Shown here: in pieces, positions 2,504 through 19,312 of the stretch
Layout of the letters: each line of letters opens with the position of its first letter
How positions within the stretch are numbered: position 1 is the first letter of the stretch
Source of the DNA: an uncultured Clostridia bacterium
Lineage (GTDB): Bacteria > Bacillota > Clostridia > UBA1381
Assembly: GCA_944392335.1 (NCBI GenBank)
Contig: CALXWJ010000021.1
Coordinates: forward strand, 62,001 to 126,000
Reading direction: 5' to 3'
DNA: 64,000 nucleotides
Notes under the pieces: model-generated
Told to the model about the DNA's origin: nothing
Seen by the model: the letters and a program-made list of their open reading frames with translations, nothing else
Database searches by the model: none
Made by a program: the position numbers and the translations under genes

Positions 2504-2635
2504 TTATAACTGCGCATGTTGTCCCCTGACGTTACCCGCGGGGACACACCTGTAATCAGAAAAGGTACAATTCTCCGCCGATTACAGCACAGCTTTGCTC
2601 TTATCCTCGTTGAATATCGGGACAAGTCCTAATTG
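2504..2635 (-). repeat. Dispersed structured repeat, copy B (inverted)
   Basis: Full-length family member on the minus strand, between the convergent EIIA and LicD genes. Read in family orientation it has the GGACTTGTCCC left end, TTCAACGAGGATAAGAGC, the central hairpin starting TGTAATCGGCGGAGA with a mismatched right arm, and the tail GGGGACAACATGCGCAGTTA. It is the only copy in this orientation and forms an inverted pair with copy A around the HPr-EIIA genes. Confidence 0.8.
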
Positions 2636-2690
2636 AATGAATGTTGGGGTATACAAACGCAAAGCCGACGAAACCGGAAACAGAATAGTC

Positions 2691-3479
2691 TTATACCTGC
2701 CATTCTATTTCCCCCATAAGCATATCATGCCCCTTCTGCTCATCCTTTGGAGGCGGCGTCATATAGTCGCCGTAAAGGGCTGTTAAATAGCCGTCGCAGT
2801 CGGCAGGAACCGGATACAGCGAACCTTCAAACATCAGTTTCTGCTCCCCGCCGAATATTAAGCTTCGCTTCATGACATGTCCGCCCTTGCAGGTTATGAA
2901 CACATATTCGCTGTCATTGCGATGACGCGTTAAAATCCATATGCCGGCGTCCATAAATAAATGTCTTACAGAAATAGGTATTTTTTCCATTAAGAGTTCT
3001 AATAAATTGCGATTATCCTCATATTGTGTCATTTCTGCCATAAGCGTTTTGCGCGCCAGCTTGAATAAGGCAGTTTCAAAGCGGCGCAGCAGTGAACTGC
3101 CGCTCAAGGGAAAAATCGGAAACAGATCGATACATATTCCCCAGTTTATGGGGATATCCTTATAGCGCACAGGGCAAGACCTTGTATTTGCTATGCGGAT
3201 TTTAGTCCATGAAAGCGGAAAGTGCTTTTCGATCTTATAATTTGTTATCATATATGTACTGTCGGATTCCCGCCGGAAAATTTTTATGAGTTTTTCAAGC
3301 TCTGTGCAATATATTATAATATCTATATCGTCGTCCCAGGGAATAAATCCCCGTTCGCGAACCGCACCGATAAGTGTACCTTGAGCCAGGAAATACTGAA
3401 TATTATGTTTTTCGCATATACGTCTAAGCTCATTAAGAGCGCCAAGTTCTTTTTTCTGAATCGATTTTAAAATATCCAT
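2691..3479 (-). CDS. LicD family phosphotransferase, last gene of the exopolysaccharide operon
   Basis: A 262-residue cytoplasmic protein. The LicD core is clear: AQGTLIGAVRERGFIPWDDD with the metal-binding acidic cluster D49-D50-D51-x-D53, as in LicD/fukutin-type nucleotidyltransferase-fold enzymes. Family members transfer phosphocholine, ribitol phosphate or related phospho-groups from a CDP donor onto glycans, so this is probably a decorating enzyme for the polymer made by the operon; the donor is unknown. A GGAGG site lies 6 bases before the ATG, and the gap to the flippase gene is 22 bases. It is the last gene before a convergent plus-strand pair. Confidence 0.87.
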   Translation of the reverse strand: MDILKSIQKKELGALNELRRICEKHNIQYFLAQGTLIGAVRERGFIPWDDDIDIIIYCTELEKLIKIFRRESDSTYMITNYKIEKHFPLSWTKIRIANTRSCPVRYKDIPINWGICIDLFPIFPLSGSSLLRRFETALFKLARKTLMAEMTQYEDNRNLLELLMEKIPISVRHLFMDAGIWILTRHRNDSEYVFITCKGGHVMKRSLIFGGEQKLMFEGSLYPVPADCDGYLTALYGDYMTPPPKDEQKGHDMLMGEIEWQV

Positions 3480-3501: not shown

Positions 3502-5010
3502 TCAAATCCGTTTTTGAAACCTTTTAAGCAAAGCCCAAAATACACGGTTTTTACTATAAAATATCAGTATAACGGCAATAAAAATCACACAAGCCGACAT
3601 ACCGGACAGTATAAGACCAATTATTCCGCCGACAGGTATAAGCCTGCACGCATAATATGCCGAAAAGCAGCCTATAGCTGCAGCACAAAGCTGAATAAGA
3701 TAGTTTACATAATATTTTTTTACAGGCTTATGCAGTGCATATTTATGAACCGCCAAAATCTCCCACCATATGCATACTCCGACCATAGATACGGTTGTAC
3801 CGAACAGAACGCCGTAAATGCCCATCTTAAATACGACCAAGAACAAAAATGATACTGCAAGGTTGACTACAACTTCCCCTACCGCTTTAAGCCGCAGACG
3901 GTTAAAAAGACCTGCCACCTCGATTACAACTATATTTGGCTGTCTCAGCCCAGTGAGAAAAAAATTCAGTATTACAACAAAAGTTATTGACGGAGGCAAA
4001 AGCCAGTCATCGCCTGCCCATATAACTATAAAACGCTCAAGGCATGCCGAAAAGCCTATTGATATAAAAAAATAAAAACAGAAGGTAGCAAAGGCAAATT
4101 CTTCAAACACAGTGTACTTGTGATCGTCGTCCTCCTGCGCCATAAGGCTTCCCATACTGCCCATAACCGAACAAAGCACATTGTATACTACCCTTGATAC
4201 GGTGCTTACCACCACGGAATAATTACTGTATATGCCCATAAGCGTGAGCTTTGCATATGAAATCATAAGATTATCTGTCCCTGTAACAAGCTTTGCTCCT
4301 ATCTTTTGATACATAAGGGAAACAACGCTCTTTTTCAGTATATCGCTATCCTCCTTGAGCAGCTTTTCCTTTTTGTATTTCTTTAAAAAGTGATATTTTT
4401 TATCGCACACCGCACTGATAACAATATTTGCACTGCAGTTGCATACCAGGTTTATAACAAGGTAGCCTATATAGCTGTCAAAACGTATAATGGCAACACA
4501 CTGCAGTATGTACTTAACAACAGCGAAAGAGTCCTCGCTTACGCTGTTTATATAGTTTTGCTGATATGCCGATAACAGAGTCCTTTTGTATGCAAAGAAG
4601 TAGCTCAGCACCGTATTAAGCAGGAACAGAATATAAATAATATTCATATTATCAATATTCACAGCTTCACGGGTAAAAAAGCGCATAAAAGGGATCAGCA
4701 TAGGCCCTATGACCGCAGTTGCGATCCCCAGTATATAATAGACCTTCTTATACATCGCCATAAGGCTTCCGATACGCTTTTCATCTCCGTCTTCAATAGG
4801 CTTATAGAGCGCAAAAGCTACCGATGTACCTATTCCAAGCTCAGTCATGGACAGGATCGTCAGCATACTTTCCATTACCGAGTTGACTCCGAGATACTCC
4901 TGTCCCAGCCTGCGGATAAAAAACCATCTTACAATAAAGCCCAGGAATATTGTTATGATCTGACCTGCAAGAGCAAAGCTGCTGTTTCGCAGCGAATTTA
5001 AAAAACGCAT
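3502..5010 (-). CDS. Wzx-type polysaccharide flippase (MOP superfamily)
   Basis: A 502-residue membrane protein with about 12-14 predicted segments, starting with SSFALAGQIITIFLGFIVRW. The N-terminal segment RRLGQEYLGVNSV and the charged stretch near KKYKKEKLLKEDSD between helices are typical of Polysacc_synt flippases in Firmicutes. These move undecaprenyl-linked repeat units across the membrane for Wzy polymerisation. It lies 12 bases after the HD-GYP-like gene and has a strong AAAGGAGG site. The operon's transferase, polymerase and Wzz-like genes make the Wzx role likely; teichoic acid or O-unit flippases are similar in sequence. Confidence 0.88.
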   Translation of the reverse strand: MRFLNSLRNSSFALAGQIITIFLGFIVRWFFIRRLGQEYLGVNSVMESMLTILSMTELGIGTSVAFALYKPIEDGDEKRIGSLMAMYKKVYYILGIATAVIGPMLIPFMRFFTREAVNIDNMNIIYILFLLNTVLSYFFAYKRTLLSAYQQNYINSVSEDSFAVVKYILQCVAIIRFDSYIGYLVINLVCNCSANIVISAVCDKKYHFLKKYKKEKLLKEDSDILKKSVVSLMYQKIGAKLVTGTDNLMISYAKLTLMGIYSNYSVVVSTVSRVVYNVLCSVMGSMGSLMAQEDDDHKYTVFEEFAFATFCFYFFISIGFSACLERFIVIWAGDDWLLPPSITFVVILNFFLTGLRQPNIVVIEVAGLFNRLRLKAVGEVVVNLAVSFLFLVVFKMGIYGVLFGTTVSMVGVCIWWEILAVHKYALHKPVKKYYVNYLIQLCAAAIGCFSAYYACRLIPVGGIIGLILSGMSACVIFIAVILIFYSKNRVFWALLKRFQKRI

Positions 5011-5022: not shown

Positions 5023-5604
5023 TTAATCAATATCCTTTACTATTTCTTCAAGGCATTCAATAAGCGCATCGTCAAAGTGTCCGCATTTATTTTCTCTGAG
5101 CATCTTAAATATTGTTTCCCGAGACAAGCCCTTACGGTAAACCCTATCCGAATCCAGAGCATCAAATACATCGCATATAGACACTATCCGGACATACATA
5201 GGAATATCTTTTTTTCCCTCATATCCGCCGCCGTCTATCCGTTCATGATGATACCTGCATAGGTTAAATACAAACTCATACTCTTTGCCGCATAACTCGC
5301 CCTCCACCGCTTCGGCTCCCAAACGGGTATGCATTCTTAAGTTATCCATCTCATTTGCCTGCAGCGATGAATCCTTTGTCAGCAGAGAGTTATCAACAAA
5401 CAGCTTTCCGATATCATGGAGAAGAGTTCCCTTGCATATCCAGCCTATCTCGTCATCGTTATAGCTTGTTATACCTAATCTGTTCGTTCTGCGAAGCATC
5501 CTGTGGGCAAGTTTTTTTACACGTAGGCTGTGATAATATGTTTCCGAATGGACTTTTTTAAGTTCATCCATAAGACTATCCAGCTTTTCTGTCATCTTTA
5601 TCAT
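5023..5604 (-). CDS. HD-GYP-like metal-dependent phosphohydrolase (candidate c-di-GMP phosphodiesterase)
   Basis: A 193-residue soluble protein. Metal-binding motifs are LLHDIGK (H63-D64) and YHHERIDGGGYEGK (H119-H120), followed by VSICDVFDALDSDRVYRK. This is the HD-GYP arrangement, with the GYP triplet read as GYE. HD-GYP enzymes hydrolyse c-di-GMP, which suits an operon with a c-di-GMP riboswitch, an EAL-like domain and a neighbouring GGDEF gene. Start: an upstream ATG at 5619 exists, but the ATG at 5604 has an AGAGGA site and overlaps the preceding stop by four bases, so it is preferred. There is no sensor or response-regulator domain. Hydrolysis of another phosphoester cannot be excluded, given the altered GYP. 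Confidence 0.8.
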   Translation of the reverse strand: MIKMTEKLDSLMDELKKVHSETYYHSLRVKKLAHRMLRRTNRLGITSYNDDEIGWICKGTLLHDIGKLFVDNSLLTKDSSLQANEMDNLRMHTRLGAEAVEGELCGKEYEFVFNLCRYHHERIDGGGYEGKKDIPMYVRIVSICDVFDALDSDRVYRKGLSRETIFKMLRENKCGHFDDALIECLEEIVKDID

Positions 5605-6545
5605 GCTTTTCCTCTCCATCTGATCTCAAAAATTTTTTTTACCGCAGATGACGGCATATGCAGTAAAAGAAAGGTTATTAGCTTATCTTTTTTTAACTTT
5701 GGATCACTGCCGATTTCTCTAAAATACTTAGCGGCTTCTTTTTTACGTCCCTCTATTATATAATGTCTGCAGCGGCGCATAGTAAACCATTCCATAACCT
5801 TTTTGATATTTTCCTTTTTTGACTCCGGTATGTCCTTATCTTCGTATAACTCAGAAACACTGTCAAAAAAACTCCAGTCCGGGTCGAAGGAATTGGCTTT
5901 TGTCGCTGTCGAGTTACCTTTAATGTATGTTGCTGTTATGCGGCTTGTAAGCACTACGGGAAAGTATGCCGCTATACGAAGGGACAGCTCAAGATCCTCC
6001 CCTATCCTGCATCCGACTGTAAATCCGCCCGTTTTATCAAATGCCGTTCGTGATATACATGTAGTTATAACAGTAAACATCTTTACAGACTTATTCTTAT
6101 AGTACTCCTCAAAAAAATTGTCCAAATATACCGTTTCTGACCGATCCTTGAAAAAACTGCATTCACTTATTGTCCTGCCGTTAACAAGCATAGTCCTGGT
6201 AAAGCTTCCGTATAAACCGGCGTCAGGATATCTTTCTGTAAGATCGCGCATTACCTCAAGATGATTTTCATGCCACACATCATCCGCATCCAAAAAGGCT
6301 ATATAGCTGCCCGTTGATGCTGTAATACCATTGTTGCGCGCTGCGCTCACACCAAGATTTGACTGGGTCATGATACGTATCTTCGGATGATCCTTATATT
6401 TTTCAAGAACCTTTCCGGTATTATCGACGGAACCATCGTTAACTATTATCAGCTCCCAGTCCTTTTCACGCTGGTTTAAAACGCTTGCTATCGCGTTATC
6501 TAAAAATTTTGCTCCGTTGTACACGGGCATGATCACTGAAAACAA
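5601..6545 (-). CDS. Family 2 glycosyltransferase
   Basis: A 314-residue GT-A enzyme. It opens with FSVIMPVYNG and contains ELIIVNDGSVDNT (first Asp of the nucleotide-sugar site), GVSAARNNGI and the DxD-type FLDADDVW. It adds a sugar to the lipid-linked repeat unit on the cytoplasmic face. Start: the open frame extends to a GTG at 6551, but that codon touches the GGGGGA ribosome-binding site; a TTG at 6545 lies 6 bases from it and is preferred. The stop overlaps the HD-GYP-like gene by four bases. Donor and acceptor sugars are unknown. Confidence 0.87.
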   Translation of the reverse strand: MFSVIMPVYNGAKFLDNAIASVLNQREKDWELIIVNDGSVDNTGKVLEKYKDHPKIRIMTQSNLGVSAARNNGITASTGSYIAFLDADDVWHENHLEVMRDLTERYPDAGLYGSFTRTMLVNGRTISECSFFKDRSETVYLDNFFEEYYKNKSVKMFTVITTCISRTAFDKTGGFTVGCRIGEDLELSLRIAAYFPVVLTSRITATYIKGNSTATKANSFDPDWSFFDSVSELYEDKDIPESKKENIKKVMEWFTMRRCRHYIIEGRKKEAAKYFREIGSDPKLKKDKLITFLLLHMPSSAVKKIFEIRWRGKA

Positions 6546-6560
6546 GCACACTCCCCCTTT

Positions 6561-7901
6561 TTAAATAAAATAAAAAATCATAAAGGCCCAGTCTATAAAA
6601 AAATCAACCGTGAACCCAAAAACTATAAAGGCAAAGTTGAAAATCAGCTGAAGTATCTTTAAATCCTCCGTTTCATAGCCGCCGGTTTTGGAAAAATGCC
6701 TCAATATACGATATACAAATACGCCGAACAGAGGTATGTATATCAACAGCGTACCCAAAACTCCGAAATTAAGCAGAGCCTGGATATATGAATTATGGCA
6801 GGCTATAGATATTACACTATAATCAATCGCCATAACCGTTATGACGCTTCCGCCTATAAGCTGACCGATAATCCCTTTTGAAAAGAATATACCCATAGCC
6901 TCTGTCCAGATGTCATAGCGGTCGGTTGTAAGCAGATCCCAGCGTCCCCGTGGAATATAAGAGAGTTTTTCGTTTATTCGTATGATCAATCCGGATATAG
7001 CCTCTATCTCTCTAAGCTGCGGAGTTGTCAAAATGACTACAACCGCAACCGCTGCCGCGACAAATACTGCTGTTAGTATTATTATGGACTTCATTCTGAA
7101 TTTAAGAATTATGTACAGTGTAAGCAATACAGCCAAAATCATCAAGGCTGAGATGCTTGCCGTCTGTACAAGCATTATCCCAAACAGCACCAATGCCGCA
7201 GCCCTGAGCCATTTGGGTATTCCCTTGACCGCAATCGCCGATACTATACATATACTGTAAAAAAGTCCGGCAAAATTAGAATCACTCAGTGCGCCGAAGT
7301 TTCTGTTAACGGTCTGGGCGCCCGCACCTGCAACATTAATATCCACCGACACATCAGTATTCGTCCAGCCGTATATACCCGAAGCAACTCCTCCGAGAAG
7401 AAAGGCATAGATAAACTTACGGAATAATCCGGGGTTATCGATGATCTTGAGCAGTATAATATAAGCAAGAGCGCAGTCAACTATTACATTAAGCCCTACC
7501 CTGTAGGATTCCAGCTGCGGCATTGCAAACAGGCTGTGAAGCATAAACACAAAGAGTGCAGGAAAATATGCCATTCTGAATTTGGTTTTAGGCAGATCCA
7601 ACAAAAATCTTAAAACCACCATATAGGAGTAAATTCTAAACACAGGCGTATCACCCAACAGCATCCTATAACGCATATACATAAAAAGAGCTGTATACAG
7701 GTAGAAATTTTCATCGAAAAAACAGACCGCTATGCAAAGGATCAAAATAACCGAGGCATAAGAGGTAAGGTCCGGCAGCGGGCCGGGGATAAGACAGCAT
7801 AAAAACCCGAGCAGAAACACTGCATCAAATATTCTGCCTCTCAATGTATTATTCCCCCGGACGTTAAGTCGGCTGCCGAGATCAACTATAATCTTGTTCA
7901 T
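6561..7901 (-). CDS. Wzy-type O-antigen/exopolysaccharide polymerase
   Basis: A 446-residue protein with about 11-12 membrane segments. The Wzy/WaaL region is seen near residues 320-400: TTDRYDIWTEAMGIF in the long external loop, then ACHNSYIQALLNFGVLGT. Such proteins join undecaprenyl-linked repeat units outside the membrane. The start overlaps the stop of the deacetylase-GT4 gene by four bases (ATGA). Together with a flippase and Wzz-like proteins this defines a Wzx/Wzy-dependent pathway. A ligase role is less likely in an organism that seems to lack lipopolysaccharide. Confidence 0.85.
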   Translation of the reverse strand: MNKIIVDLGSRLNVRGNNTLRGRIFDAVFLLGFLCCLIPGPLPDLTSYASVILILCIAVCFFDENFYLYTALFMYMRYRMLLGDTPVFRIYSYMVVLRFLLDLPKTKFRMAYFPALFVFMLHSLFAMPQLESYRVGLNVIVDCALAYIILLKIIDNPGLFRKFIYAFLLGGVASGIYGWTNTDVSVDINVAGAGAQTVNRNFGALSDSNFAGLFYSICIVSAIAVKGIPKWLRAAALVLFGIMLVQTASISALMILAVLLTLYIILKFRMKSIIILTAVFVAAAVAVVVILTTPQLREIEAISGLIIRINEKLSYIPRGRWDLLTTDRYDIWTEAMGIFFSKGIIGQLIGGSVITVMAIDYSVISIACHNSYIQALLNFGVLGTLLIYIPLFGVFVYRILRHFSKTGGYETEDLKILQLIFNFAFIVFGFTVDFFIDWAFMIFYFI

Positions 7902-9859
7902 TGAAGTAATCCTTCCACTAATCTGTCAAATTTTTCTATTTCTTTCTCATTTCCGTAATCATGGGTTTGTATATATTCACGCATTTTATCAAGGCATTTT
8001 GGATTTTCCAACACTGATTTGAGACCTTGATAAAGAGCATAATCGTTATTTTCAAAAATCAGGCCGTCGATGCCGTTTTGTATTTGCTCTCCCGCCGAAG
8101 TGTATCGCGTGACCATAGGTACAAGACCCATAATAAGCCCTTCGGTCACAACCATCGGCTTACCCTCGTGATGCGACGGGAGCAGCATTGCATCAAAGCT
8201 CTTCATATACGGTATTGGGTTTTCCCTGACCCCAATGAGATATATCACATCTTCCAATCCATAAACGGCTATAAGCTCTCTAAGCCGTTGTTCATCACGG
8301 CCCTTTCCGATGATTACCCATTTAACATTTTCTGTCAGACCATCGGCTTTCAGCTGTGCAAAAGCCCTTACAGCCCTGTCAAGCCCTTTGTGTTCAAAGC
8401 TAATCCTTGCCACTGTTAAAATTTTTAAATATCTGTTCGGATCATCAAAGGGAAAAGTAACATCCCCTGTGCTCCTGCTTCTTATGTATTCCGATGAAAG
8501 CAGGTTTGGAATAAAGTATGTCTTGTCTTTATGCTCAGGATGCTGCCGGACATATGCTAAGCGGCAGCTCTCGCTTACAAAAACAAGGGCATCCGCCTTG
8601 TCAAATGCTTTTTTATCGATTTTATAACTAAGTCCGGATTTATCATATTCGAGGTGATGCCATGAAATTTTCTTTTTAGCCTTCACCCGCGTCATAACAT
8701 AGTTAAGGCACCAGTCAAATTCATAGGCAACAGCTACGTCGTACTCCTTGCTGTTGGGAGTAGAATACCGGCATCCCTGCTTTGACATTATCTGTACAGC
8801 CATTCGTTTATTATGTTTAACTTTTTTATAATACATTCCCTGCGCTGCCGCTGCTATATAGCGTGGTGAACACAGCTTTTTAATCACATTTCCGACAGAA
8901 TACTTTTTGTGCCGCTTTCCCTGCGGCAATATATTTATCCCGGACTTTATACCGCTGATACTGCCGTTTTCATAAAACATAACATCCACATCGTATTTGT
9001 CGGTGTCAAGAGCGTTAAGAAAGTTAACCAATGATGTCATCGCCCCTCCGATATGAACCTGGATAAAGCATACAAGAAGCTTTATCCGTCTGCCGATTAC
9101 ATCCTCCAAATGCAATCCGTTTTTCTCGATCCACTCGTGTGTCACAAATGGGTGAGCCTCCGGCAGTGTATTATCTGTCAGCACTCCGTTAATATAATCG
9201 GGATGCGTCATAAGCTCAAGAGAATTGCTTATTTTTGCTTTGTCTGACCGTTCAAAATCCTGTACAGACCCGAAATAATCCGTCGTCCCTATTCGCTTTT
9301 TATCAATTTTAAGGCGTTTAATCATAAAATTAAAGATATTTTTATAAAGGCTGAATAGAGGGGAAAAGCTCCCTTTTGGAATATTTCTGCTGATACGGAC
9401 GGTTTTGAACCCATATTTTTTTAAAAGCTTTCTTATTTCTGTATAAACGCTTAAATATACATGAGTATAATTGTGTGAGTCGGCATGCATAAGTGTGAAG
9501 CCCATATCTATATATTTTTTGATTTGCGCTTCGACCTCGCAGCGTATGGCCTTTCTTGCGGATCTATCGAGGTATATACGCGCACGCAGCGGTATATGGA
9601 AGGTACCGGTAAAACAACCCCTGTCATCGCACAGGTCTGAGCATGCACACTCATTTGTAAGAGGTCTGCCCTCGGTGAGATTGATATGCAATCCAACCTT
9701 GTCAAAAAAACCCCTCTCCCGTGCAAGTTGTACCGCAGCCTCGCAGCCCGGCATATTAACCATTATGGTAGTACGGTTTATAAGACCCTGTTCAAAACAG
9801 TCGGCTATTGCACTGCTGACACTGTCGGAATAGCCGAAATCGTCTCCGTTTATAATCAT
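7898..9859 (-). CDS. ChbG/YdjC-type carbohydrate deacetylase fused to a family 4 glycosyltransferase
   Basis: A 653-residue two-domain protein. Residues 1 to about 255 are a ChbG/YdjC deacetylase: INGDDFGYSD (D6-D7), GLHINL with H58, and MHADSHNYTH with H125 and H129, matching the Asp-His-His metal set of the family. Residues about 260-653 are a GT4: the N-terminal lobe has QVHIGGAMTSL, and the C-terminal lobe has KILTVARIS, IGKGRDEQRL and SHHEGKPMVVTEG with the GT4 E-x7-E pattern. A GGAGGAG site lies before the ATG. No stop or frameshift separates the domains. The natural inference is one enzyme that adds a sugar and de-N-acetylates a neighbouring or the same amino sugar. I know of no characterised example of this fusion. 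Confidence 0.85.
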   Translation of the reverse strand: MIINGDDFGYSDSVSSAIADCFEQGLINRTTIMVNMPGCEAAVQLARERGFFDKVGLHINLTEGRPLTNECACSDLCDDRGCFTGTFHIPLRARIYLDRSARKAIRCEVEAQIKKYIDMGFTLMHADSHNYTHVYLSVYTEIRKLLKKYGFKTVRISRNIPKGSFSPLFSLYKNIFNFMIKRLKIDKKRIGTTDYFGSVQDFERSDKAKISNSLELMTHPDYINGVLTDNTLPEAHPFVTHEWIEKNGLHLEDVIGRRIKLLVCFIQVHIGGAMTSLVNFLNALDTDKYDVDVMFYENGSISGIKSGINILPQGKRHKKYSVGNVIKKLCSPRYIAAAAQGMYYKKVKHNKRMAVQIMSKQGCRYSTPNSKEYDVAVAYEFDWCLNYVMTRVKAKKKISWHHLEYDKSGLSYKIDKKAFDKADALVFVSESCRLAYVRQHPEHKDKTYFIPNLLSSEYIRSRSTGDVTFPFDDPNRYLKILTVARISFEHKGLDRAVRAFAQLKADGLTENVKWVIIGKGRDEQRLRELIAVYGLEDVIYLIGVRENPIPYMKSFDAMLLPSHHEGKPMVVTEGLIMGLVPMVTRYTSAGEQIQNGIDGLIFENNDYALYQGLKSVLENPKCLDKMREYIQTHDYGNEKEIEKFDRLVEGLLQ

Positions 9860-9904: not shown

Positions 9905-10897
9905 CTATTTACGCAGTGTGAATATGCGCCCTATAATTACCGCGCTGTATGGCGCTACGTAAAATAAGGCATAAACAATTCTGCGCTTTATCGGTATTCC
10001 ATGTCTTTTTATCATGCTTTTATAGCTGCTCCTGTAAATTTCAATATATTTTCCGCTGACGCAGTCGGTATCTCTTTCTTTGGCGTTAAGCCGCATTTGC
10101 TCATTGTAACGAAGGATAATATCCGTACAGATTTTCTCACGGGTACGAAGTACCTGAAGGGGTTTATTTTCCCGTATAAAAAAATCGATTCGTTCCTTAT
10201 ATGCTTTTAACCAATCATACCTATGCGGATTGTTTTTAAGCCTTTTTGCTATATTGTCCATTATGCTGCCGCTATGCTGAAAATAATAGTACAGCCTTTC
10301 GCTTGTAAATGCAGTTTTATGCGCATTATATACAGCACGGTAAACAGTAAATTCATCCTCGTTCCATACTCCGTCAGGAAACCTGATATCTTTAAATATC
10401 CCGCATCTGAATATCTTTGCGCATGCAAACGATTTCAGGTCATAGCCAAGAAGAGCCTTTTCGCTGTCCGTTTCATAAACACGGGGATTATTTTCGGTAT
10501 CGGAAAAGACTCCGTCTTCTCCCTTTTCATAGCCGCACTGCGCAATATCACAGCCTAACCCTTCACAAATAGCAATCATTTTTTCAGCGTAATCAGAACG
10601 GATAAAATCATCTGAGTCAAGAAAGGATATATAATCATCCTCCCCCGCTGTTTTAAGGGCAAGGGTCAGCCCGACGTTTCTTGCATCTGACAATCCCCCG
10701 TTTTCCTTATGTATTACATGTATATTTTTGTACATACGTGCATATTCGTCACATATTTCGGGGCACCCGTCGGGGGAACCGTCGTCTACAAGAATAATCC
10801 CGACTCTTTCATACGTCTGCTCGAGCACCGAACGTATACAGCGGTGTATATATCTTTCAACATTATATACAGGTATTATAAAATACAGGTTTTTCAT
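9905..10897 (-). CDS. Family 2 glycosyltransferase (EpsJ/CpsJ-like)
   Basis: A 330-residue GT-A enzyme: YFIIPVYNVERYI, GIILVDDGSPDGCP, NGGLSDARNVGL and FLDSDDF are the canonical GT2 blocks. The C-terminal part (KRLKNNPHRYDWLKAY and later) resembles capsule glycosyltransferases that transfer galactose, galactofuranose or similar sugars, but specificity cannot be read from sequence. A GAGGAG site precedes the ATG. The metallophosphoesterase gene ends 14 bases upstream and the next gene starts 45 bases downstream, the widest gap inside this operon but still without an evident promoter. Confidence 0.87.
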   Translation of the reverse strand: MKNLYFIIPVYNVERYIHRCIRSVLEQTYERVGIILVDDGSPDGCPEICDEYARMYKNIHVIHKENGGLSDARNVGLTLALKTAGEDDYISFLDSDDFIRSDYAEKMIAICEGLGCDIAQCGYEKGEDGVFSDTENNPRVYETDSEKALLGYDLKSFACAKIFRCGIFKDIRFPDGVWNEDEFTVYRAVYNAHKTAFTSERLYYYFQHSGSIMDNIAKRLKNNPHRYDWLKAYKERIDFFIRENKPLQVLRTREKICTDIILRYNEQMRLNAKERDTDCVSGKYIEIYRSSYKSMIKRHGIPIKRRIVYALFYVAPYSAVIIGRIFTLRK

Positions 10898-10911: not shown

Positions 10912-11766
10912 CTACCTGTCAAGAGTTATCAGTACGACCTCCGGTTGGTTAAAGTATCTTTTTTTACTCGCATTTTGGTCGCATCCGCCGCTTACAATCA
11001 TGGCCGCTGCCCCCTCGGAATAAAAGCCGTAATCGTATGCGGGAAAGATGCTGTTGTCGTATATGTCATGACCTATCACACCGCCAAGAAACGGAAGACG
11101 GATTATACCTCCGTGCATATGCCCCGACAAAATCAGGTCAACTCCGATATTTTTAAGATATGGATACATATCCGCACGGTGATTAATAAGAATGGAAAAT
11201 TCCTCGCTGTCCTCCGGAATAAATCCCTCTATTTTGCTGATAACATCCTCCCGGACCTCTTCCTCCCAAAGTTCATTTTTCCCGCTGTCTTTGGCGCCTA
11301 TTAGCCAGATTATATCTCCGTCCTTTTTTATCTTTTTATAGTCATTTTCAAGCCAGACTATACCGACGTCCCAAAGATTGCCTATGATATGTTCATACTC
11401 CTCATTCTGCGATTCATGATTTCCCGAGACAGCATACATAGGTATTGTATCGCCGACGTTTTCTGCAATCTTTTTCGTTTCCTCAAAGCTATAGCCGGGA
11501 AGCTGAACCATATCGCCGCAAAATATTATAACATCCGGGCTTGTATTCTCTATATGCGCCAATATCTGTTCTGCAAAGGGTGCTTCATGCAGGTCGGCTA
11601 TTAAAAATATTTTATATCCGTCAAAATTGTATGGGACGTCATTATGCCGGAATGTATATCGCGTGAGCTTTACGGTTTTATTCATAGCTGTATTTACAGC
11701 AAGCGCTGCTGCTGACGCAAGAATAAGGGCTAATACGATAATAACCAACGTTTTTATTTTTTTCAC
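10912..11766 (-). CDS. Membrane-anchored metallophosphoesterase (YkuE/YaeI-like)
   Basis: A 284-residue protein with one N-terminal membrane segment (residues 6-25) and a calcineurin-type fold outside or at the membrane. All metal motifs are present: D58-x-H60, G84-D85, GNHE at 115-118, and GHMHGG with H216 and H218. YaeI/YkuE relatives hydrolyse phosphodiesters or pyrophosphates of lipid-linked intermediates, so recycling of undecaprenyl pyrophosphate or trimming of UDP-sugar or lipid products is a reasonable guess. The GTG start overlaps the stop of the Wzz-EAL gene by four bases (GTGA), so translation is coupled. It is an unusual member of a Wzx/Wzy operon. Confidence 0.85.
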   Translation of the reverse strand: MKKIKTLVIIVLALILASAAALAVNTAMNKTVKLTRYTFRHNDVPYNFDGYKIFLIADLHEAPFAEQILAHIENTSPDVIIFCGDMVQLPGYSFEETKKIAENVGDTIPMYAVSGNHESQNEEYEHIIGNLWDVGIVWLENDYKKIKKDGDIIWLIGAKDSGKNELWEEEVREDVISKIEGFIPEDSEEFSILINHRADMYPYLKNIGVDLILSGHMHGGIIRLPFLGGVIGHDIYDNSIFPAYDYGFYSEGAAAMIVSGGCDQNASKKRYFNQPEVVLITLDR

Positions 11767-13973
11767 TCTTGCATTTCCTTTCTTTTAAGTTCTTCCGGTT
11801 TACCATAGAAGTAGCCTTGTTTATAATCAAAACCCAGTCTTGTAATAAGCGCATCCTGAGAACCTGTTTCAACGCCGCAGATACAAGATTTTATCCCGTG
11901 ATTTCTGCACTCATCAATTATGTGTATGAAGTTTGTTTCCATATCCTTCTCAGCCTTTATGAAGTCCTCGTCGCTGGAAGCATAAATGTCATTATTAAGG
12001 CTGTCAAGACTCATTTTAATATATTTCGGCTCAAGTACCCTAAGTATCTCTTGCTCTTCATACGTATTTTCAAACCTGTCTATGCATATGCTTATACCCA
12101 TCTTTTCAAGCAAGGTTATATCCTCAAGCGTAGACGCAATGTCATATACCTCAAGCTCAAGGCATACACACTCCGGGGGAATATGATTTTCGGATATATG
12201 CTTTATAATTATATCGTTTAACGCAAAGTCCCGAATCTGTCCGGAGGGACAGTTGACATGCACAACGGGAGCCCTTCCTTTTTTCTTTCCCATATATGCA
12301 ATATCGGCACAAACATTTTTGATTATCCAGTCGTTAAGCTGCCAGAATATTCCAAAGTCTGATATGCAGCCTATTATCTTTGCCGGAGACACCATACCAA
12401 GCTCTTCGTTGCGCCATCTGATAAAGATTTCAAGATGTTCTCTTTCGGTTTTGCCGCTGCTTACCATCGGTTGATACACAAGAGTAAATTCATCAAAATC
12501 CTTTAGATACTGATCATATAAAAGCTGATGAAGTCTGTCCATACCCGATACGTCTATTTCTGCCTTTGCTTCCTTTTGATCATCCTCTGCCTTTGTTTTT
12601 GCCATGATGTTTTTCAGCAGTTCTCTTAGAAGCACTGCAATAACCAGCACCCCGAATGTAAGCACTATCATGAATAGCGCTATGAGGTTAACAGGTCTGT
12701 CCGCAGACACCTCCGGAAGAATCAGGTACTGCAGATCACTGTTGATCTCCATGTTGAACAGCTCGCTTATTGAAAGGTTTGCAATTTCGCTGTACTCATT
12801 TGAAAGAATAAGTATTTCCGAAAAAATTTCATCATTTTCCGCAATCAGACGATCCTTTGTTTCACGAGGAACAGTGTCGTTTGTATAATCGTCTATTATA
12901 GCATTGTAATAGTTTATGGTATGCATGGCATCAGTAGCTGCTGCCGCGCGGTCCGCATAAGACAAAACAATATTGTCATATGTGTTTATATGTTCCTCTA
13001 TGTTGTAATCCTCGATCACATCCTGATCACGGTTATTGGATGCGTCAATATCGGTTTGTGTGCGATGGGCCTGGTTATAAAGCCCTGCCGCCTTATAAGG
13101 ATCGTAAAATGTTGTGATCTCATTTTTGTAATTGTCTGCAATCGTGTTGTCGACCATCATGGTTTCAGTAAGATCCTGTACCTTTGTCTGATAGCTTTTT
13201 ATTATCATCTCAGTATCCTTTGCAAGGTTTCCCGCACGAATATTACCATAATATTTTGCATGCTGAACATCCCTTATATGCTCATACAGTTCCATGATCT
13301 CGGCAAAGGAATACCCCGTACGTTTTGACCGGAACTCGGGAAAATCGGCGGCAAGGGTTTCCAGATAGGCAATAATCGAGTCAAGATTTTCGCTCATGGA
13401 ATTGGAAATCTCAATATAGTCGGCAGAGGAATTGTCCGCGGTTTTTGCAAAATCGGGTATTGTCCTTTTGTTGTAGTATTTATCCAGCAAAAAATCATCG
13501 TATTCTTTTATAATGCTGCTGAACATTTTTACCCCAAACTCATCTCCCAAAGATGCATCATATGTAAACTTCATTTCATATTCTGTTGTGACCGCATCGT
13601 ATTTTTCGCCTAACAGGGCGGCAGATTCGGAAACCTCCTTGTCTAAGTCGGTAATTACCTTTTCAATGGTAATATCCTGACGTATACCCTTAACGCTCAA
13701 TTTTTTGCCGGCATCCAGCCCAAGATTTTCAAGAGCCCCCTGTATAACAACAGGGTTTTGGATTTCATAAGGATCCAATTCACTTACCCCATCGGGTGCA
13801 AGCCCCTCTGCAGCTCCGTCGTAATTATATTTAAAGCCGAGCATGCAAGTGTATGTTTGCATTGAGTTTACGGCATAAACGGTCAAAAGCCCGACTGCAA
13901 GAGAAAGGGCAATCATATGCAGAATGTATCGGCGAATAATATTGATTATATCTCTTATACTTAAATATTCCAT
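11763..13973 (-). CDS. Wzz-like membrane protein fused to a degenerate EAL domain (candidate c-di-GMP receptor)
   Basis: A 736-residue protein. Membrane segments near residues 17-37 and 434-456 enclose a large helix-rich external region, the topology of Wzz chain-length proteins. After the second segment comes a cytoplasmic EAL domain, from about residue 490 to the end. Kept EAL residues: E515 (EIF in place of EAL), the Asn of VNCPSG, the first Glu of LELE, D632, K653, E702 and Q719. Changed: the second Asp of DDFG is R633, loop 6 reads DRFENTYEE, and the Glu of the usual TE pair is Val. Loss of the metal-site Asp and loop 6 predicts weak or no hydrolysis, hence a binding role like LapD or FimX. 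Start: the ATG at 13973 has GGAGG 8 bases upstream; a further ATG at 14012 is less likely. Confidence 0.85.
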   Translation of the reverse strand: MEYLSIRDIINIIRRYILHMIALSLAVGLLTVYAVNSMQTYTCMLGFKYNYDGAAEGLAPDGVSELDPYEIQNPVVIQGALENLGLDAGKKLSVKGIRQDITIEKVITDLDKEVSESAALLGEKYDAVTTEYEMKFTYDASLGDEFGVKMFSSIIKEYDDFLLDKYYNKRTIPDFAKTADNSSADYIEISNSMSENLDSIIAYLETLAADFPEFRSKRTGYSFAEIMELYEHIRDVQHAKYYGNIRAGNLAKDTEMIIKSYQTKVQDLTETMMVDNTIADNYKNEITTFYDPYKAAGLYNQAHRTQTDIDASNNRDQDVIEDYNIEEHINTYDNIVLSYADRAAAATDAMHTINYYNAIIDDYTNDTVPRETKDRLIAENDEIFSEILILSNEYSEIANLSISELFNMEINSDLQYLILPEVSADRPVNLIALFMIVLTFGVLVIAVLLRELLKNIMAKTKAEDDQKEAKAEIDVSGMDRLHQLLYDQYLKDFDEFTLVYQPMVSSGKTEREHLEIFIRWRNEELGMVSPAKIIGCISDFGIFWQLNDWIIKNVCADIAYMGKKKGRAPVVHVNCPSGQIRDFALNDIIIKHISENHIPPECVCLELEVYDIASTLEDITLLEKMGISICIDRFENTYEEQEILRVLEPKYIKMSLDSLNNDIYASSDEDFIKAEKDMETNFIHIIDECRNHGIKSCICGVETGSQDALITRLGFDYKQGYFYGKPEELKRKEMQE

Positions 13974-13974: not shown

Positions 13975-15420
13975 TCAGATACCTCCGACCTTTGTCTGCT
14001 GTATGCTGGCAAGGAGCTTCTTTTTGCGGCGCAGCATGACTCTGTCCTGTATGACGCTTATGGCAATACAGATTATAAACATAACTACAGCTCCGAGCAG
14101 GAATGCTCCTCCCGCGCCTACTATCAAATCTGTAGAAAATACCTCCCGTTCCGTAACATCTGCGGTTATATAATTTTCATTTGTTTTGTTATAATATTCC
14201 TCCACAACGCTTATTGCCCTGTCTGCAAGATCCTCGTATTCGGTTTTAAGCTCATCCAGATATTCCTCGCATCTTGCACAAAGTCTTTCGTATTCCTCGC
14301 CGCTTTGGGCAACACTTCCGTAATGTGAAATTTCCTGATTCAAAAGCTCTATTTCAGCGCCGTATTCGGCGGTCATCTCGTCAGCGTCGTGTTTCTGTTC
14401 CACGATAGTATCAAAAGCGGTTTTTGGACGCGCCTGATACAGTCCCTGGGTCTCGTCCCGTACAACATTGATAAGATTTTCGGTAAATGTATGGTCGTAG
14501 TTGTCCATAGCATACTTGTTTACCAATGCCCTGTCGCTGTATTTGCTGAACTGGAGAGAGTTGTTTTCAAGATTAACAAACAGCTTGTTTAGATTGATCT
14601 CTGCATCACGGGAAATGGCTGATGATTCAATAAAGCTTGCTATGCCGTCAAGTTTATTTGTAACAAGCAGTTCATAATCGCCTATGATATCCTTCAATGC
14701 CGTATCTTCTCCAACCGAAACAAAACCCGGTGATTTGTTCTCAAGTTCGTTAAGATAATTTATGGTGGCATTAACTCTTACCCTGTACTGCTGCACCATT
14801 TCCTTATAATCATATCCAGACAGATCGTCCATAGCCACCAAAGCCTTAAACCCGCCTATGCCTCCCGAAAATTCAGCTATACGATCCCTGTTGACCTCAA
14901 CAAGCGCTTCGAGGAAATCGCTACTGTAATCCGGAGAAAACAGTCTTTTTAATAAGCTGTTATTGCGATAATCATGCATTTGTATGTATGTTATTCGATA
15001 CTCATTAGCAACATAACTGTAATCGTTGCCTTCGCTGCGGGCAGATGATACGGATGAGCCGGCAGAGTTTTTAAGATAGCTGTACAAAAAGAGCTTATCC
15101 TTTATGTCCTCTACGGTATAGCTTTGATATTTCCCGTCCTCCTGCATAAGCTTCAGAGCCGCTTCAATTTTTTGGTCGTCTATAAGATCGTATATCGTGA
15201 ACCTTTCTCCGTCCGGATAGCAGGAGGACGCGATCTCGGGATATGTAAGCACAATGTGCACCCTTGCGGAAGCATATTCGCTGTATACGACCTTCCCGCA
15301 GTAAAACAGGGCAAATAATGCTCCTACCACGAACATAACAAGGCCAAAGCGTTTAAATTTTACCAGACGTTCCCTGTAAAATGCCCTTCGCAGGCTGTTG
15401 ACATGTTTAATTATTTTCAC
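13975..15420 (-). CDS. Wzz/polysaccharide co-polymerase-like membrane protein
   Basis: A 481-residue protein with one membrane segment near residues 25-47 and another near 443-467 (GGAFLLGAVVMFIICIAIS), enclosing about 390 external residues rich in coiled-coil helix (for example AEYGAEIELLNQEISHY). This is the Wzz/PCP topology, although the Wzz domain itself is only weakly recognisable. Such proteins set chain length by assembling around Wzy. It ends one base before the start of the Wzz-EAL gene, so the two are translationally coupled and may form a hetero-oligomer. No BY-type tyrosine kinase gene, the usual partner in Firmicutes, is present. Confidence 0.72.
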   Translation of the reverse strand: MKIIKHVNSLRRAFYRERLVKFKRFGLVMFVVGALFALFYCGKVVYSEYASARVHIVLTYPEIASSCYPDGERFTIYDLIDDQKIEAALKLMQEDGKYQSYTVEDIKDKLFLYSYLKNSAGSSVSSARSEGNDYSYVANEYRITYIQMHDYRNNSLLKRLFSPDYSSDFLEALVEVNRDRIAEFSGGIGGFKALVAMDDLSGYDYKEMVQQYRVRVNATINYLNELENKSPGFVSVGEDTALKDIIGDYELLVTNKLDGIASFIESSAISRDAEINLNKLFVNLENNSLQFSKYSDRALVNKYAMDNYDHTFTENLINVVRDETQGLYQARPKTAFDTIVEQKHDADEMTAEYGAEIELLNQEISHYGSVAQSGEEYERLCARCEEYLDELKTEYEDLADRAISVVEEYYNKTNENYITADVTEREVFSTDLIVGAGGAFLLGAVVMFIICIAISVIQDRVMLRRKKKLLASIQQTKVGGI

Positions 15421-16808
15421 TTAACGGACACCTCCTCTTCTTGGTCTGCAACTGTCTTTATCTTAAAATCGTCTTCTCCTTCTGCCGATGACTTTAAAAA
15501 AATTATTTTCGTAGTTAAAAGTATTATCTTTAAATCAAGCAGAGGCGAATAGTGAGTTATATAATACAGATCGTAATATGTTCTGTCATGAATATATGTG
15601 GAATACCTACCGTATACATGAGACAGACTCGTCAGACCTGCCTTTACCTTGAACCTGTCATCGTAACGTTCTATCTCATTTTCAAACTGTTCAACAAATA
15701 CGGGTCTTTCAGGTCTTGGCCCAACTATGCTCATATCACCTTTAAGTATGTTTATGATCTGCGGCAGCTCATCAAGCCTCATTGCCCGGAGTATCTTTCC
15801 TACCTTTGTTATCCTCGGGTCGTTCTTTTCGGCAAATTTAGGGCCGCTGAGCTGTTCGGCATTAGGTACCATCGTTCTGAATTTATAAATTTCAAATTCA
15901 CGCTTGCCGCGTGTGTAACGGGTCTGCTTGTAAATTAACGGGCCGGGGGACGTCACCTTTATTGCCGCTGCTATTACCCCCATAGGGATAATAGCCACTA
16001 TTAATCCCAAGGCGGCAAAAACAATATCCATCGCCCGTTTTAAAAACAGTTCCGCCGTATTAAGCTCTGTTTTAGGCATATACAGCGTGAGAATATCGTC
16101 AAAGCATACTATCTTTGAGTTGGTTTTACCCACATCTACCATTTCGGGAACAATAAACAAATCCATATTCAGCTTAAGTGCGGCGTTGACCGCGGTATGG
16201 TATATCTCAGTGCTGAATCCGTTAAGGACGCATACGGCATCAAAAAGCGGAAACTGTTCATCTACAAAACGGCTGAATTCCTCAGGCGTTTTATTTTCAA
16301 TATTTTCATACCATGAGCCGTACTTTCTCAAAACGCCGTATTTTATCCTCTTCATACGATGAAAGTTAGACCGGTCAATATCTATTATTAAAAGCCTTGG
16401 TTGACTGTAACAGCTTTTGCTGATTTTTTCAAAAAGACAATCAGCTCCGAAAACACAGAGAATATTCACAAATGAAAATACAGCATCAAATGCCAGACGT
16501 ACACCGTCTCTAAACAGAACAAGGTTTATTATACACATGATAACAAACATATATATCGCCGAAAGGATTGTTGATACGGTCTTTTCATACAGACCTGAAA
16601 TAAGCGCCGAATATTTTTCCAAACACAACATAAAGCAGAGCATTCCACATATTTCTATTATATTTAAAAACATCATGCTGCGCATTCCGATTGGCCCTTG
16701 TTCGGGCATAATAATCCAAAACAAGACCGCAGTTATCAAGAGTACGGCGCAGTTGATCAAAAAACTGTATTTACCTTCTGTGCGCATATTACGCGTTTTC
16801 TTTTTCAT
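15417..16808 (-). CDS. Polyprenyl-phosphate sugar-1-phosphate transferase (WcaJ/EpsL-type initiating enzyme)
   Basis: A 463-residue protein. The N-terminal half carries about four or five membrane segments and a CoA-binding-like central region (residues about 140-250). The C-terminal domain is the bacterial sugar transferase core: a membrane re-entrant helix, KRAMDIVFAALGLIV, SPGPLIYKQTRYTRGKREF, KFRTM, then RLDELPQIINILKGDMSIVG and PRPERPVF. It starts the repeat unit by moving a hexose-1-phosphate from UDP-sugar to undecaprenyl phosphate. It overlaps both neighbours by four bases. It is the second gene of the operon. Confidence 0.92.
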   Translation of the reverse strand: MKKKTRNMRTEGKYSFLINCAVLLITAVLFWIIMPEQGPIGMRSMMFLNIIEICGMLCFMLCLEKYSALISGLYEKTVSTILSAIYMFVIMCIINLVLFRDGVRLAFDAVFSFVNILCVFGADCLFEKISKSCYSQPRLLIIDIDRSNFHRMKRIKYGVLRKYGSWYENIENKTPEEFSRFVDEQFPLFDAVCVLNGFSTEIYHTAVNAALKLNMDLFIVPEMVDVGKTNSKIVCFDDILTLYMPKTELNTAELFLKRAMDIVFAALGLIVAIIPMGVIAAAIKVTSPGPLIYKQTRYTRGKREFEIYKFRTMVPNAEQLSGPKFAEKNDPRITKVGKILRAMRLDELPQIINILKGDMSIVGPRPERPVFVEQFENEIERYDDRFKVKAGLTSLSHVYGRYSTYIHDRTYYDLYYITHYSPLLDLKIILLTTKIIFLKSSAEGEDDFKIKTVADQEEEVSVK

Positions 16809-17674
16809 TTTTTTACATTCTCCTTTTTTATGCAGTTAATCGTCCTTTCCCGGATTATTCTGAACAATTTGGAAAACATAATTATATAAGGCCTTGAATA
16901 TACCAATGCTCTAAATAACATATTATCCATTCCCCATACTGGTAACGCCTCTTTTAGTGTCCCCGATACTCGTCTGTTTGCTGAAAGCCTTTTTGAAAAG
17001 GATAATCCGCCTCCTGTCAGGGAGGTATCGCCGCGGGAATAGTGATACAATATGTCATTTGTAAAATAATAGCTGTTCACGTTATGAAAAAGCCGTATAC
17101 AAAAATCCAAATCCTCAGCAGTTTTCAGCATGGTATTGAACCTAAGCCCACTTATAAGGGATGTTCTAATCAGCTTCATACAGACATGATTCATATTTAT
17201 ACCTATCATCATCCGAATATAAACCCTGCGCAGTTTTTCGCCCTTTAAAAGAATATTATTCCTAAATGCCCCCTTAGGCAGGATATGACGTCCCCCCGGC
17301 ATATCGTATATAAAGCGGCACTGGACTACATCGGCGCCATGCTGTACAGCACAACCATATAAGACTTCAAGCATGTTTTCCTCCCATGCGTCATCTGCGT
17401 CCAAAAAGGCAGTATACTCAGCATCAAGCATTGCAAGAGCCTTGTTTCGTGCCTGTGCAACACCGCCGTTTTTTTTATTAATAATGTATACAAACCGGTT
17501 GTCCTTATCTGCAAATTTTTTTATGATATCGTTACTGCCATCAGTAGACGAATCGTTTACGATAATAGCATGCCACTGTGAAAAGGTTTGATTTACAAGG
17601 CTTTGAAGGCATCTTTCGATATTATCCTGCTTATTATAAACTGGCACTATAACCTGTATTTTATATTGTTTCAT
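16805..17674 (-). CDS. Family 2 glycosyltransferase, first gene of the exopolysaccharide operon
   Basis: A 289-residue GT-A enzyme: QVIVPVYNKQDNI, AIIVNDSSTDGS, NGGVAQARNKAL and FLDADDAW. Start: the frame stays open to 17767, but that extension runs through the terminator and riboswitch; an ATG at 17674 with a GGAG site 7 bases upstream gives the normal GT2 N-terminus. Its leader carries the c-di-GMP-I riboswitch and intrinsic terminator, so this gene and the eleven behind it are expected to respond to c-di-GMP. The stop overlaps the sugar transferase start by four bases. Confidence 0.9.
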   Translation of the reverse strand: MKQYKIQVIVPVYNKQDNIERCLQSLVNQTFSQWHAIIVNDSSTDGSNDIIKKFADKDNRFVYIINKKNGGVAQARNKALAMLDAEYTAFLDADDAWEENMLEVLYGCAVQHGADVVQCRFIYDMPGGRHILPKGAFRNNILLKGEKLRRVYIRMMIGINMNHVCMKLIRTSLISGLRFNTMLKTAEDLDFCIRLFHNVNSYYFTNDILYHYSRGDTSLTGGGLSFSKRLSANRRVSGTLKEALPVWGMDNMLFRALVYSRPYIIMFSKLFRIIRERTINCIKKENVKK

Positions 17675-17702
17675 TACACATCTCCAATCTGCAGCAGCAT
17701 TA

Positions 17703-17743
17703 AAATTAATAAAGGCTGCAACATTAAAATATATGTTGCAGCC
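17703..17743 (-). terminator. Intrinsic terminator of the riboswitch expression platform
   Basis: On the minus strand an 11-bp perfect stem (GGCTGCAACAT / ATGTTGCAGCC, 17743-17714) with an 8-base loop is followed by TTTATTAATTTTA. The first six bases of the 5' arm (GGCTGC) are also the 3' end of the c-di-GMP aptamer, so the two structures compete. Ligand binding should then block the terminator (ON switch); the direction is inference. Confidence 0.85.
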
Positions 17744-17815
17744 GATCGAGCATATGATATAAATCACTTAGCCATCTAAACTTTGCGTCTCCGCCTTTCG
17801 ACGAATTTGCCTATT
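17738..17815 (-). ncRNA. Cyclic di-GMP-I (GEMM-I) riboswitch
   Basis: Minus-strand sequence shows the GEMM-I core in order: GGCAAA (17811-17806), a hairpin UUCGUC/GGCGGA capped by a GAAA tetraloop (17799-17796), GACGCAAAG (17789-17781), and a second helix bearing the tetraloop receptor GCUAAG with its UAUGC partner (17754-17750), ending in CGGCUGC. The receptor keeps its closing pair as G-C where the consensus has C-G, a compensated change. It sits between a strong promoter and a terminator in the leader of the exopolysaccharide operon. I read it by eye; a covariance-model search against Rfam RF01051 would confirm it. Confidence 0.92.
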
Positions 17816-17834
17816 AAAATAACCATATATATTT

Positions 17835-17863
17835 ATATTACCATTTATTTCAATAGTTGTCAA
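17835..17863 (-). promoter_or_regulatory. Promoter of the exopolysaccharide operon
   Basis: Minus strand: a perfect TTGACA (17863-17858), a 17-base spacer and TAATAT (17840-17835). Transcription should begin near 17828, some 15 bases before the riboswitch core. It lies in the 128 bases between the GGDEF gene stop and the riboswitch core, so the operon has its own start site. Confidence 0.85.
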
Positions 17864-17929: not shown

Positions 17930-19312
17930 CTAAAAAGCAATAATCCCGGAGCTGCCGATTATATAATTGTCACGTCCGCGTTTCTTAACAGTGTAAAGCA
18001 GACGATCCGTCTCCCTATATAAATCCTCCACCGATTTATCAGATGCAGCAGGCACAACACCTGCACTGCAGGACAGGCTGTGATTATTTACACTGATGGA
18101 ACGTATTTTTTCCATAAACAGCTTCATATCCGACTCCAGCTTTTCTTCGGATACAGGCATATAAATAAAGACTGCAAACTCATCCCCGCCGATCCTGCCT
18201 ATAAAGCCGTTTTCCCCGAAGATTTCTTTGAGATGATGGGCAACAAACATCAAAATACGATCCCCTTCGGGATGACCGCAGCTGTCGTTAATCTCTTTAA
18301 AATAATCTATATCAACCATGATAAAATATCCGTAAAAATCCCCCTCCGGGTCTTGTTTGTCCAAAACCTTCCTGCACGCCTGAAAGAAAGCTCTTCGATT
18401 CATAACATCTGTCACCACATCCATCCCCGCTTCGTGATCCATATACATAGAATATTTACGGTTAAGCATCAAAAACACTGCAACCAAACACATTAACGAG
18501 AGTATTCCCACAATAAACTGTATTTGCAGATGAATAAGGTCGGAATAAACTGCATTGGTCAAATTAATTCCGTTTTGGCTGAGGACTCTGAGCATCCTGT
18601 TTATAAAATATACCCCTACTGCCAAAGACAGAAAAACAGTCACCAATATGCTTACAACTAAAACAAGAGTGTGATAGCTCCCTCCCAACCGGAGACGCTG
18701 CGCCTTCTCCACTTTGCAACAAAATTTCTTCCAAGCATCGGATTGCTCCCATCTCCACAGCAGCACGACAATAACCGATGTAAATATATCTGTAATATAA
18801 TTATTAACATTATAAATTCCGTCTAAAGCGTGCAACGCACTATAGCCGGAATCCGGAAACAGCACCCCCATAAAGCTATATACCAAAAAAGAGTGGATAA
18901 ATCTCCCGAGGAATGAGACGATAAATATCCAAAGTCCCTTAAAAGACATCCGTTTAGCTGCCATATATAAAATTCCTATCAACAGCCCAAAAAGAATCCT
19001 GCTGCCCACACTAAACAATATACTTTCCAAGGGGAAGCCGCTCATGCTGGGAGAAAACAGCTGATCTATATCCGTTACATAATGAGCTCCGGCTTTCCAC
19101 ATGCTGGATATCCCGAATACAGCGCCTAAAATAACCGCTTCGGGCAAGCCGATCATTGCGCCTGCCAGCATAACAGGAATATAGGCAATAGTCATGGAAA
19201 TAGGTTCTATATGTATATACCCAATAAATGAAAATGACATCAGCATTTCTATCGATACTAAAATCAGCAGCAAATAAAAACGCATATTTAAATTTTTAAA
19301 TATAATTTTCAT
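17930..19312 (-). CDS. Membrane diguanylate cyclase (ECF-S-like membrane domain plus GGDEF)
   Basis: A 460-residue protein. The N-terminal part has about five or six membrane segments and resembles ECF transporter S-component folds (IPVMLAGAMIGLPEAVILGAVFG). A further pair of segments flanks a short external loop near residues 218-280. The cytoplasmic GGDEF domain begins near residue 300 with DVVTDVMNRRAF; VDIDYFKEIND and an intact GGDEF at 375-379 predict active c-di-GMP synthesis. The inhibitory I-site RxxD is absent (GENGFIGRIGGDEF), so simple product inhibition is unlikely. It lies directly upstream of the riboswitch-controlled operon on the same strand. The membrane region may sense a small ligand. 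Confidence 0.9.
   Translation of the reverse strand: MKIIFKNLNMRFYLLLILVSIEMLMSFSFIGYIHIEPISMTIAYIPVMLAGAMIGLPEAVILGAVFGISSMWKAGAHYVTDIDQLFSPSMSGFPLESILFSVGSRILFGLLIGILYMAAKRMSFKGLWIFIVSFLGRFIHSFLVYSFMGVLFPDSGYSALHALDGIYNVNNYITDIFTSVIVVLLWRWEQSDAWKKFCCKVEKAQRLRLGGSYHTLVLVVSILVTVFLSLAVGVYFINRMLRVLSQNGINLTNAVYSDLIHLQIQFIVGILSLMCLVAVFLMLNRKYSMYMDHEAGMDVVTDVMNRRAFFQACRKVLDKQDPEGDFYGYFIMVDIDYFKEINDSCGHPEGDRILMFVAHHLKEIFGENGFIGRIGGDEFAVFIYMPVSEEKLESDMKLFMEKIRSISVNNHSLSCSAGVVPAASDKSVEDLYRETDRLLYTVKKRGRDNYIIGSSGIIAF

Follow-up and report, generated by a model that had tools for sequence, protein, structure and literature searches.

A stretch of 64,000 nucleotides (hereafter the window) from the genome of an uncultured gut bacterium carries, directly before a twelve-gene Wzx/Wzy exopolysaccharide operon, an RNA element that we read as a c-di-GMP-I (GEMM-I) riboswitch by which c-di-GMP turns the operon on at the level of transcription, with a probability of about three in four. 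The genome scanned here (G000) spans 3.64 Mb and is 99.5% complete. Orthologs were collected by scanning the family of the fourth operon gene, g4, against GTDB species genomes, which yielded 12 relatives at 53-74% identity and one distant relative (L084); the closest record is Candidatus Roslinia caecavium, a clostridium. Thirteen operons, including that of the window, had a readable 5' end, and L075, which is cut, was left out.

The aptamer occupies positions 17734..17821 of the minus strand. Using cmscan, RF01051 was matched at 17821-17734 (-) over its full length (model positions 1-87 of 87), with 64.4 bits against a gathering threshold of 35 and an E-value of 2.7e-10. This is the sole Rfam match in the whole window and the single GEMM-I aptamer of the 3.64-Mb genome, and the covariance-model search suggested by the sequence-only reading therefore bears out the aptamer it had proposed. 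The bases equivalent to Vc2 G20, A47 and C92, which contact the ligand in Vc2 (PMC4744006), are G, A and C in the window and in five orthologous leaders, with the numbering mapped by hand. On the 5' side, a consensus scan placed a sigma-A-type promoter at 17835..17863 (-), reading TTGACA-17-TAATAT with a TG extension. On the 3' side, an intrinsic terminator with an 11-bp stem lies at 17714..17743 (-), its arms GGCTGCAACAT and ATGTTGCAGCC running from 17743 to 17714 and followed by TTTATTAATTTT. The succession of promoter, aptamer and terminator predicted from the letters is thus present in full, on the minus strand and at the predicted place.

No other terminator-like site in the scanned 15.5 kb is as strong as this terminator, whose 5' arm, GGCUGCAACAU, overlaps the 3' strand of the aptamer, which ends in GGCUGCAACA. 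As had also been noted from the letters, GGCUGC is common to both structures: the first arm of the terminator opens with these bases of the aptamer, which makes it exclusive with 4 of the 22 aptamer pairs, and it also claims the C corresponding to Vc2 C92 (again mapped by hand). When the downstream DNA was shuffled with dinucleotides preserved, an arm of such length followed by T's appeared once in 3000 shuffles. In the energy model the aptamer by itself reaches -14.7 kcal/mol, against -32.8 kcal/mol for the terminator together with the remaining aptamer pairs, so that the terminator would be the default once it has been transcribed. The U-tract of the window is weak (UUUAUUAAUUUU), and termination may therefore be leaky. 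The first ATG of g1 lies at 17674, with a Shine-Dalgarno-like GGAG ahead of it; in the minimum-energy fold of window positions 17640-17828 the GGAG near the g1 start pairs with a CUC of the aptamer, which in this model suggests a possible second, translational layer.

The leader is followed by twelve minus-strand genes spaced -19 to +45 nt apart. The first, g1 (16805..17674), encodes a family 2 glycosyltransferase (PF00535, E 5e-36), as do g6 (9905..10897) and g9 (5601..6551), both matching PF00535; a fourth glycosyltransferase gene, g7 (7898..9859), joins a YdjC-like deacetylase to a GT4 glycosyltransferase (PF04794 + PF00534). The initiating enzyme is g2 (15417..16808), a polyprenyl glycosylphosphotransferase (PF02397; TIGR03025 at 309.3 bits against a cut-off of 295.55), g11 (3502..5010) is a Wzx-type flippase (PF01943, 30.8 bits against a cut-off of 28.2), and g8 (6561..7901) is a Wzy-type polymerase whose PF04932 score of 31.6 bits falls 0.1 below the cut-off of 31.7. 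A membrane protein resembling a co-polymerase is encoded by g3 (13975..15420); it matched no Pfam or NCBIfam family and was hit by the co-polymerase-like proteins of L063 and L084. The remaining genes encode a probable co-polymerase fused to a degenerate EAL domain (g4, 11763..13973), a calcineurin-like metallophosphoesterase (g5, 10912..11766; PF00149, E 1.1e-14), an HD-GYP-like putative c-di-GMP phosphodiesterase (g10, 5023..5619; PF01966/PF13487) and, at the end of the operon, a LicD-family phosphotransferase (g12, 2691..3479; PF04991, E 6.6e-31). One operon thus holds a Wzx/Wzy pathway set of initiating transferase, flippase, polymerase, co-polymerase (g4, by fold) and four glycosyltransferase genes. 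The sequence-only reading had placed a complete Wzx/Wzy operon encoding c-di-GMP proteins behind the leader, and both parts of that claim hold, the first with g2 and g11 over their cut-offs, g8 0.1 bit under and g4 assigned by fold, the second with g4 (EAL) and g10 (HD-GYP-like). No Walker A motif, as would mark a tyrosine kinase, was found in any operon protein. The g7 fusion is full length in L073, L076 and L082, and other orthologs align by the GT4 half only. Copies of a dispersed repeat of ~140 bp, which may be a mobile element or a structured repeat, flank the operon at window positions 2500-2640 and about 19320-20000; the copy at 2500-2640 scored 40 matches across the genome.

The assignment of g4 as a co-polymerase with a Wzc-like N-terminal half and a degenerate EAL domain draws on family, fold and residue losses. 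Residues 494-726 match EAL (PF00563, E 1.3e-31), and the model of this half superposes on the EAL structures of FimX, RocR and LapD with Z-scores of 26.0, 25.5 and 21.8, respectively. The N-terminal half contains two membrane helices and an extracytoplasmic domain. When its 465 residues were predicted alone, the nine best Foldseek rows were all Wzc, with E-values down to 2e-6, the weight of which is lowered by the helical content; against the better-superposed Wzc chains, VIA gave Z-scores of 12-13 over ~175-250 residues with a low TM-score, long helices inflating Z. WzzE and KpsE were also among the structural matches of this half, and the Pfam Wzz cut-off was passed only by a homologue in L058. 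As the match is partial and its Z-scores are inflated by long helices, a Wzc-like fold is supported, not proven.

Within the EAL domain, Tyr500, Gln501, Glu515, Arg519, Asn574, Glu606, Asp632, Lys653, Glu702 and Gln719 are invariant in 12 aligned g4 members. Both catalytic acids of active EAL domains, the second Asp of DDFG and the Glu equivalent to RocR E352, have been lost from all 11 close orthologs, position 633 being R, K or Q and position 699 being Cys in every one of them; the distant L084 has N at 633 and E at 699. E352 is a catalytic residue and loop 6 is needed for cleavage, and in another EAL domain the first Glu of the ExxE motif is required for activity (PMC12943098). In LapD, a degenerate EAL domain serves as a receptor (PMC3032553). 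As the ligand-site residues are kept, the catalytic acids are lost and LapD sets a precedent, g4 would bind c-di-GMP without cleaving it; sequence and predicted structure together indicate that its EAL domain is probably a catalytically dead c-di-GMP receptor. In binding the ligand, it would gate chain polymerisation or export, so that the signal probably has a second point of action at the protein level. An EAL domain that lacks canonical residues might also bind something else or nothing.

Directly upstream of the promoter, at 17930..19312 (-), lies a gene for a GGDEF diguanylate cyclase with a membrane N-terminus (PF00990, E 4.2e-30); its motif is intact, it ends 67 nt before the promoter, and its product would make c-di-GMP. 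In the genome census, this operon-adjacent gene is one of two GGDEF domains, g4 is the only EAL domain, g10 is the only HD_5 match, and no PilZ domain was found. A genome search for c-di-GMP-II riboswitches gave no match, and neither did its control. The HD-GYP motif of g10 ends in GYE in the window, not in GYP, and across nine orthologs the histidine/aspartate ligands and HHExxDGxGY are kept while the final P of the motif is E, H or T. The g10 protein would degrade c-di-GMP, and its feedback would be negative because the riboswitch would induce g10; we infer both this feedback and the identity of the polymer. Almost all c-di-GMP machinery that can be recognised in the genome is found in the operon or next to it, and the arrangement suggests a c-di-GMP circuit that centres on one polymer and is nearly self-contained. 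The g4 ortholog is likewise the only EAL domain in five of the relatives (G098, G099, G101, G102 and G104); other relatives have more GGDEF and EAL genes, with up to 15 GGDEF in G100, and the description as nearly self-contained is therefore limited to the genome of the window and some relatives. The upstream GGDEF gene is found in the window, as a contig-edge fragment in L065 and in another arrangement in L074 and L081. As it is not upstream in L072, it is not universal, and it was ruled out as a conserved part of the module.

An aptamer just upstream of g1 was also found in L072, L073, L078, L082 and L065, so that 6 of the 13 operons, with that of the window, carry one, and each of these five relatives has a single GEMM-I aptamer in its genome. 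Consensus-like promoters lie 5' of the aptamer in the orthologs too, that of L073 being TTGACA-17-TATAAT. In all six leaders, the 5' arm of the terminator starts at the [GA][GA]CUGCA of the aptamer. Stems range from 10 to 13 bp and loops from 5 to 27 nt, and several terminator pairs vary across the six leaders yet stay paired (C-G/U-A/U-G and G-C/A-U/G-U). The observed arm was reached in 0-22 of 3000 dinucleotide shuffles of the downstream DNA for each leader, and together these shuffles and the conservation rule out a chance terminator. Gene order from g1 to g12 matches the window in most orthologous operons, with the odd loss. The operon copy of L065 (G031) appears shortened, with g3 and g5 not found and g4 partial with a stop codon, which would reflect decay or a misassembly of the metagenome-assembled genome.

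In a tree of g1-g4 in which most splits are well supported, riboswitch-bearing operons fall in both main clades. The simplest history would therefore be that the ancestral operon had the riboswitch and that at least two losses followed. The riboswitch is also not essential to the module, as 7 of the 13 orthologous operons do without it, and a search of the 420 nt upstream of g1 in these seven (284 nt in L077, limited by the start of the contig) found no leftover aptamer cores. Two of the seven, L074 and L081, have HD and GGDEF genes upstream, and so the module stays linked to c-di-GMP in some riboswitch-less operons as well. A family search identified the next upstream gene of L074 as a hybrid histidine kinase, and the frame that immediately precedes g1 in L080 and L081 ends in sequence judged by eye to be receiver-like. 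The riboswitch-less L076 and L083 share a common promoter and a leader of more than 100 nt that contains GGTGGAGTA and has no Rfam match; it is possibly another regulatory element.

It is unlikely that the riboswitch is a relic or weak, with the main control of the operon lying elsewhere and the EAL domain of g4 being merely structural. The seven aptamer-less operons, the HD, GGDEF and hybrid histidine kinase genes that some of them have upstream instead, and the weak U-tract of the window would all suit such a state, but aptamer and terminator are intact together in six divergent operons, and the EAL binding residues are invariant in all aligned orthologs, riboswitch-less ones included.

The best reading of the shared strand is a switch of transcriptional ON polarity. 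As the first arm of the terminator is the 3' strand of the aptamer, ligand binding and termination should be exclusive. With c-di-GMP bound, the aptamer would keep its 3' strand (GGCU and the ligand-contacting C of UGC) and no terminator would form, so that RNA polymerase would proceed into g1-g12; without ligand, the 11-bp terminator would fold and transcription would end ~40 nt before g1. That the ligand should favour read-through had been proposed from the window, and the proposal gains support from the recurrence of this strand sharing in six leaders despite their differing sequences, loop lengths and terminator pairs. The opposite polarity, in which c-di-GMP promotes termination and the polymer is made at low c-di-GMP, has the example of C. 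difficile, also a clostridium, in which the functional class I riboswitches are all OFF switches (PMC6366702, PMC11477304). We consider an OFF switch improbable here, as the first arm of the terminator is the aptamer's own 3' strand in 6/6 orthologous leaders, no anti-terminator that ligand binding could disrupt was seen in the leader, and a class I ON switch has precedent in Bc2 of Bacillus thuringiensis. It is very improbable that the ligand is 3',3'-cGAMP, as for the GEMM-Ib riboswitches that precede Geobacter polysaccharide genes (PMC6456294), since the base aligned with Vc2 G20 is G, and not the A that marks GEMM-Ib, in the window and all five orthologous leaders, G20A being the change reported to permit cGAMP binding (PMC7288161), and since the neighbouring genes are of GGDEF, EAL and HD-GYP types, although the GGDEF protein, judged by eye, may be of the Hypr type.

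Elsewhere in the family, GEMM-I aptamers with the same terminator overlap are often seen before other genes. In L063 (1343-16836) and L058 (3596-19875 as oriented), a GEMM-I aptamer precedes a gene for an SLH-domain surface protein, and behind that gene lies a polysaccharide operon of another kind that includes co-polymerases; the pairing of GEMM-I with polymer genes therefore recurs. In L062, L064 and L066, GEMM-I aptamers with the same AGCUGCAAU terminator overlap precede VTC-domain genes; CotH is nearby in L064, and a polysaccharide deacetylase/SLH gene comes next in L066.

The proposed c-di-GMP ON switch and EAL-type receptor can be set beside several known systems. In Wzc-type co-polymerases, a cytoplasmic tyrosine kinase tunes polymer assembly. 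The N-terminal half of g4, with its two membrane helices and best structural matches, may resemble the membrane and extracytoplasmic half of Wzc, whereas the C-terminal domain is a degenerate EAL in place of the BY-kinase with its Walker A motif. Among the Firmicutes, exopolysaccharide systems with degenerate-GGDEF receptors are represented by Listeria PssE and Bacillus YdaK. These share with the present proposal a c-di-GMP receptor built into the exopolysaccharide operon; their receptor is of the GGDEF type and their polymerisation route is another, whereas here a Wzx/Wzy pathway, an EAL-type receptor and a riboswitch are found. Bc2, as an ON-type RF01051 switch, belongs to the same aptamer family, matched at full length here, and the two would have in common a terminator-based platform and ON polarity; the window switch differs in that its predicted target is a complete Wzx/Wzy operon with c-di-GMP proteins built in. 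With the Geobacter GEMM-Ib switches, the window has RNA architecture and target class in common (PMC6456294), but it has G at the G20 equivalent, comes from a clostridium and adjoins GGDEF, EAL and HD-GYP genes. LapD and FimX resemble g4 in the EAL fold, the kept ligand-site residues and the lost catalytic acids, and LapD passes its signal across the membrane (PMC3032553). Unlike them, g4 has no GGDEF or HAMP domain, and its output would be a polymer co-polymerase where theirs is protease sequestration or pilus regulation.

Polysaccharide genes under GEMM-I control have been described before, and placing such a switch ahead of a polymer operon therefore extends known practice. We found no published EAL-fused co-polymerase in the open-licence literature, and the predicted EAL-fused co-polymerase together with the concentration of a c-di-GMP toolkit at one locus, neither of which formed part of the sequence-only reading, was not found described. 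Tentatively, and at somewhat less than even odds, we suggest that this clade of uncultured gut Clostridia has reduced c-di-GMP signalling to a nearly single-output circuit in one polymer locus, combining an ON switch at the RNA level with a co-polymerase gated by a c-di-GMP-binding EAL domain in the place of the Wzc tyrosine kinase, so that the second messenger takes over from tyrosine phosphorylation in the control of chain polymerisation. As one locus brings together an RNA sensor and the probable enzymes for making and degrading the signal, and the genome holds almost nothing else of c-di-GMP machinery, the system is compact enough for signal, expression and polymer to be measured jointly. 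Among the Clostridia, the class I switches that have been studied in C. difficile turn expression off, and the leader contributes a conserved class I candidate of the ON type. If the reading is true, the degenerate-EAL co-polymerase would link c-di-GMP directly to chain polymerisation.
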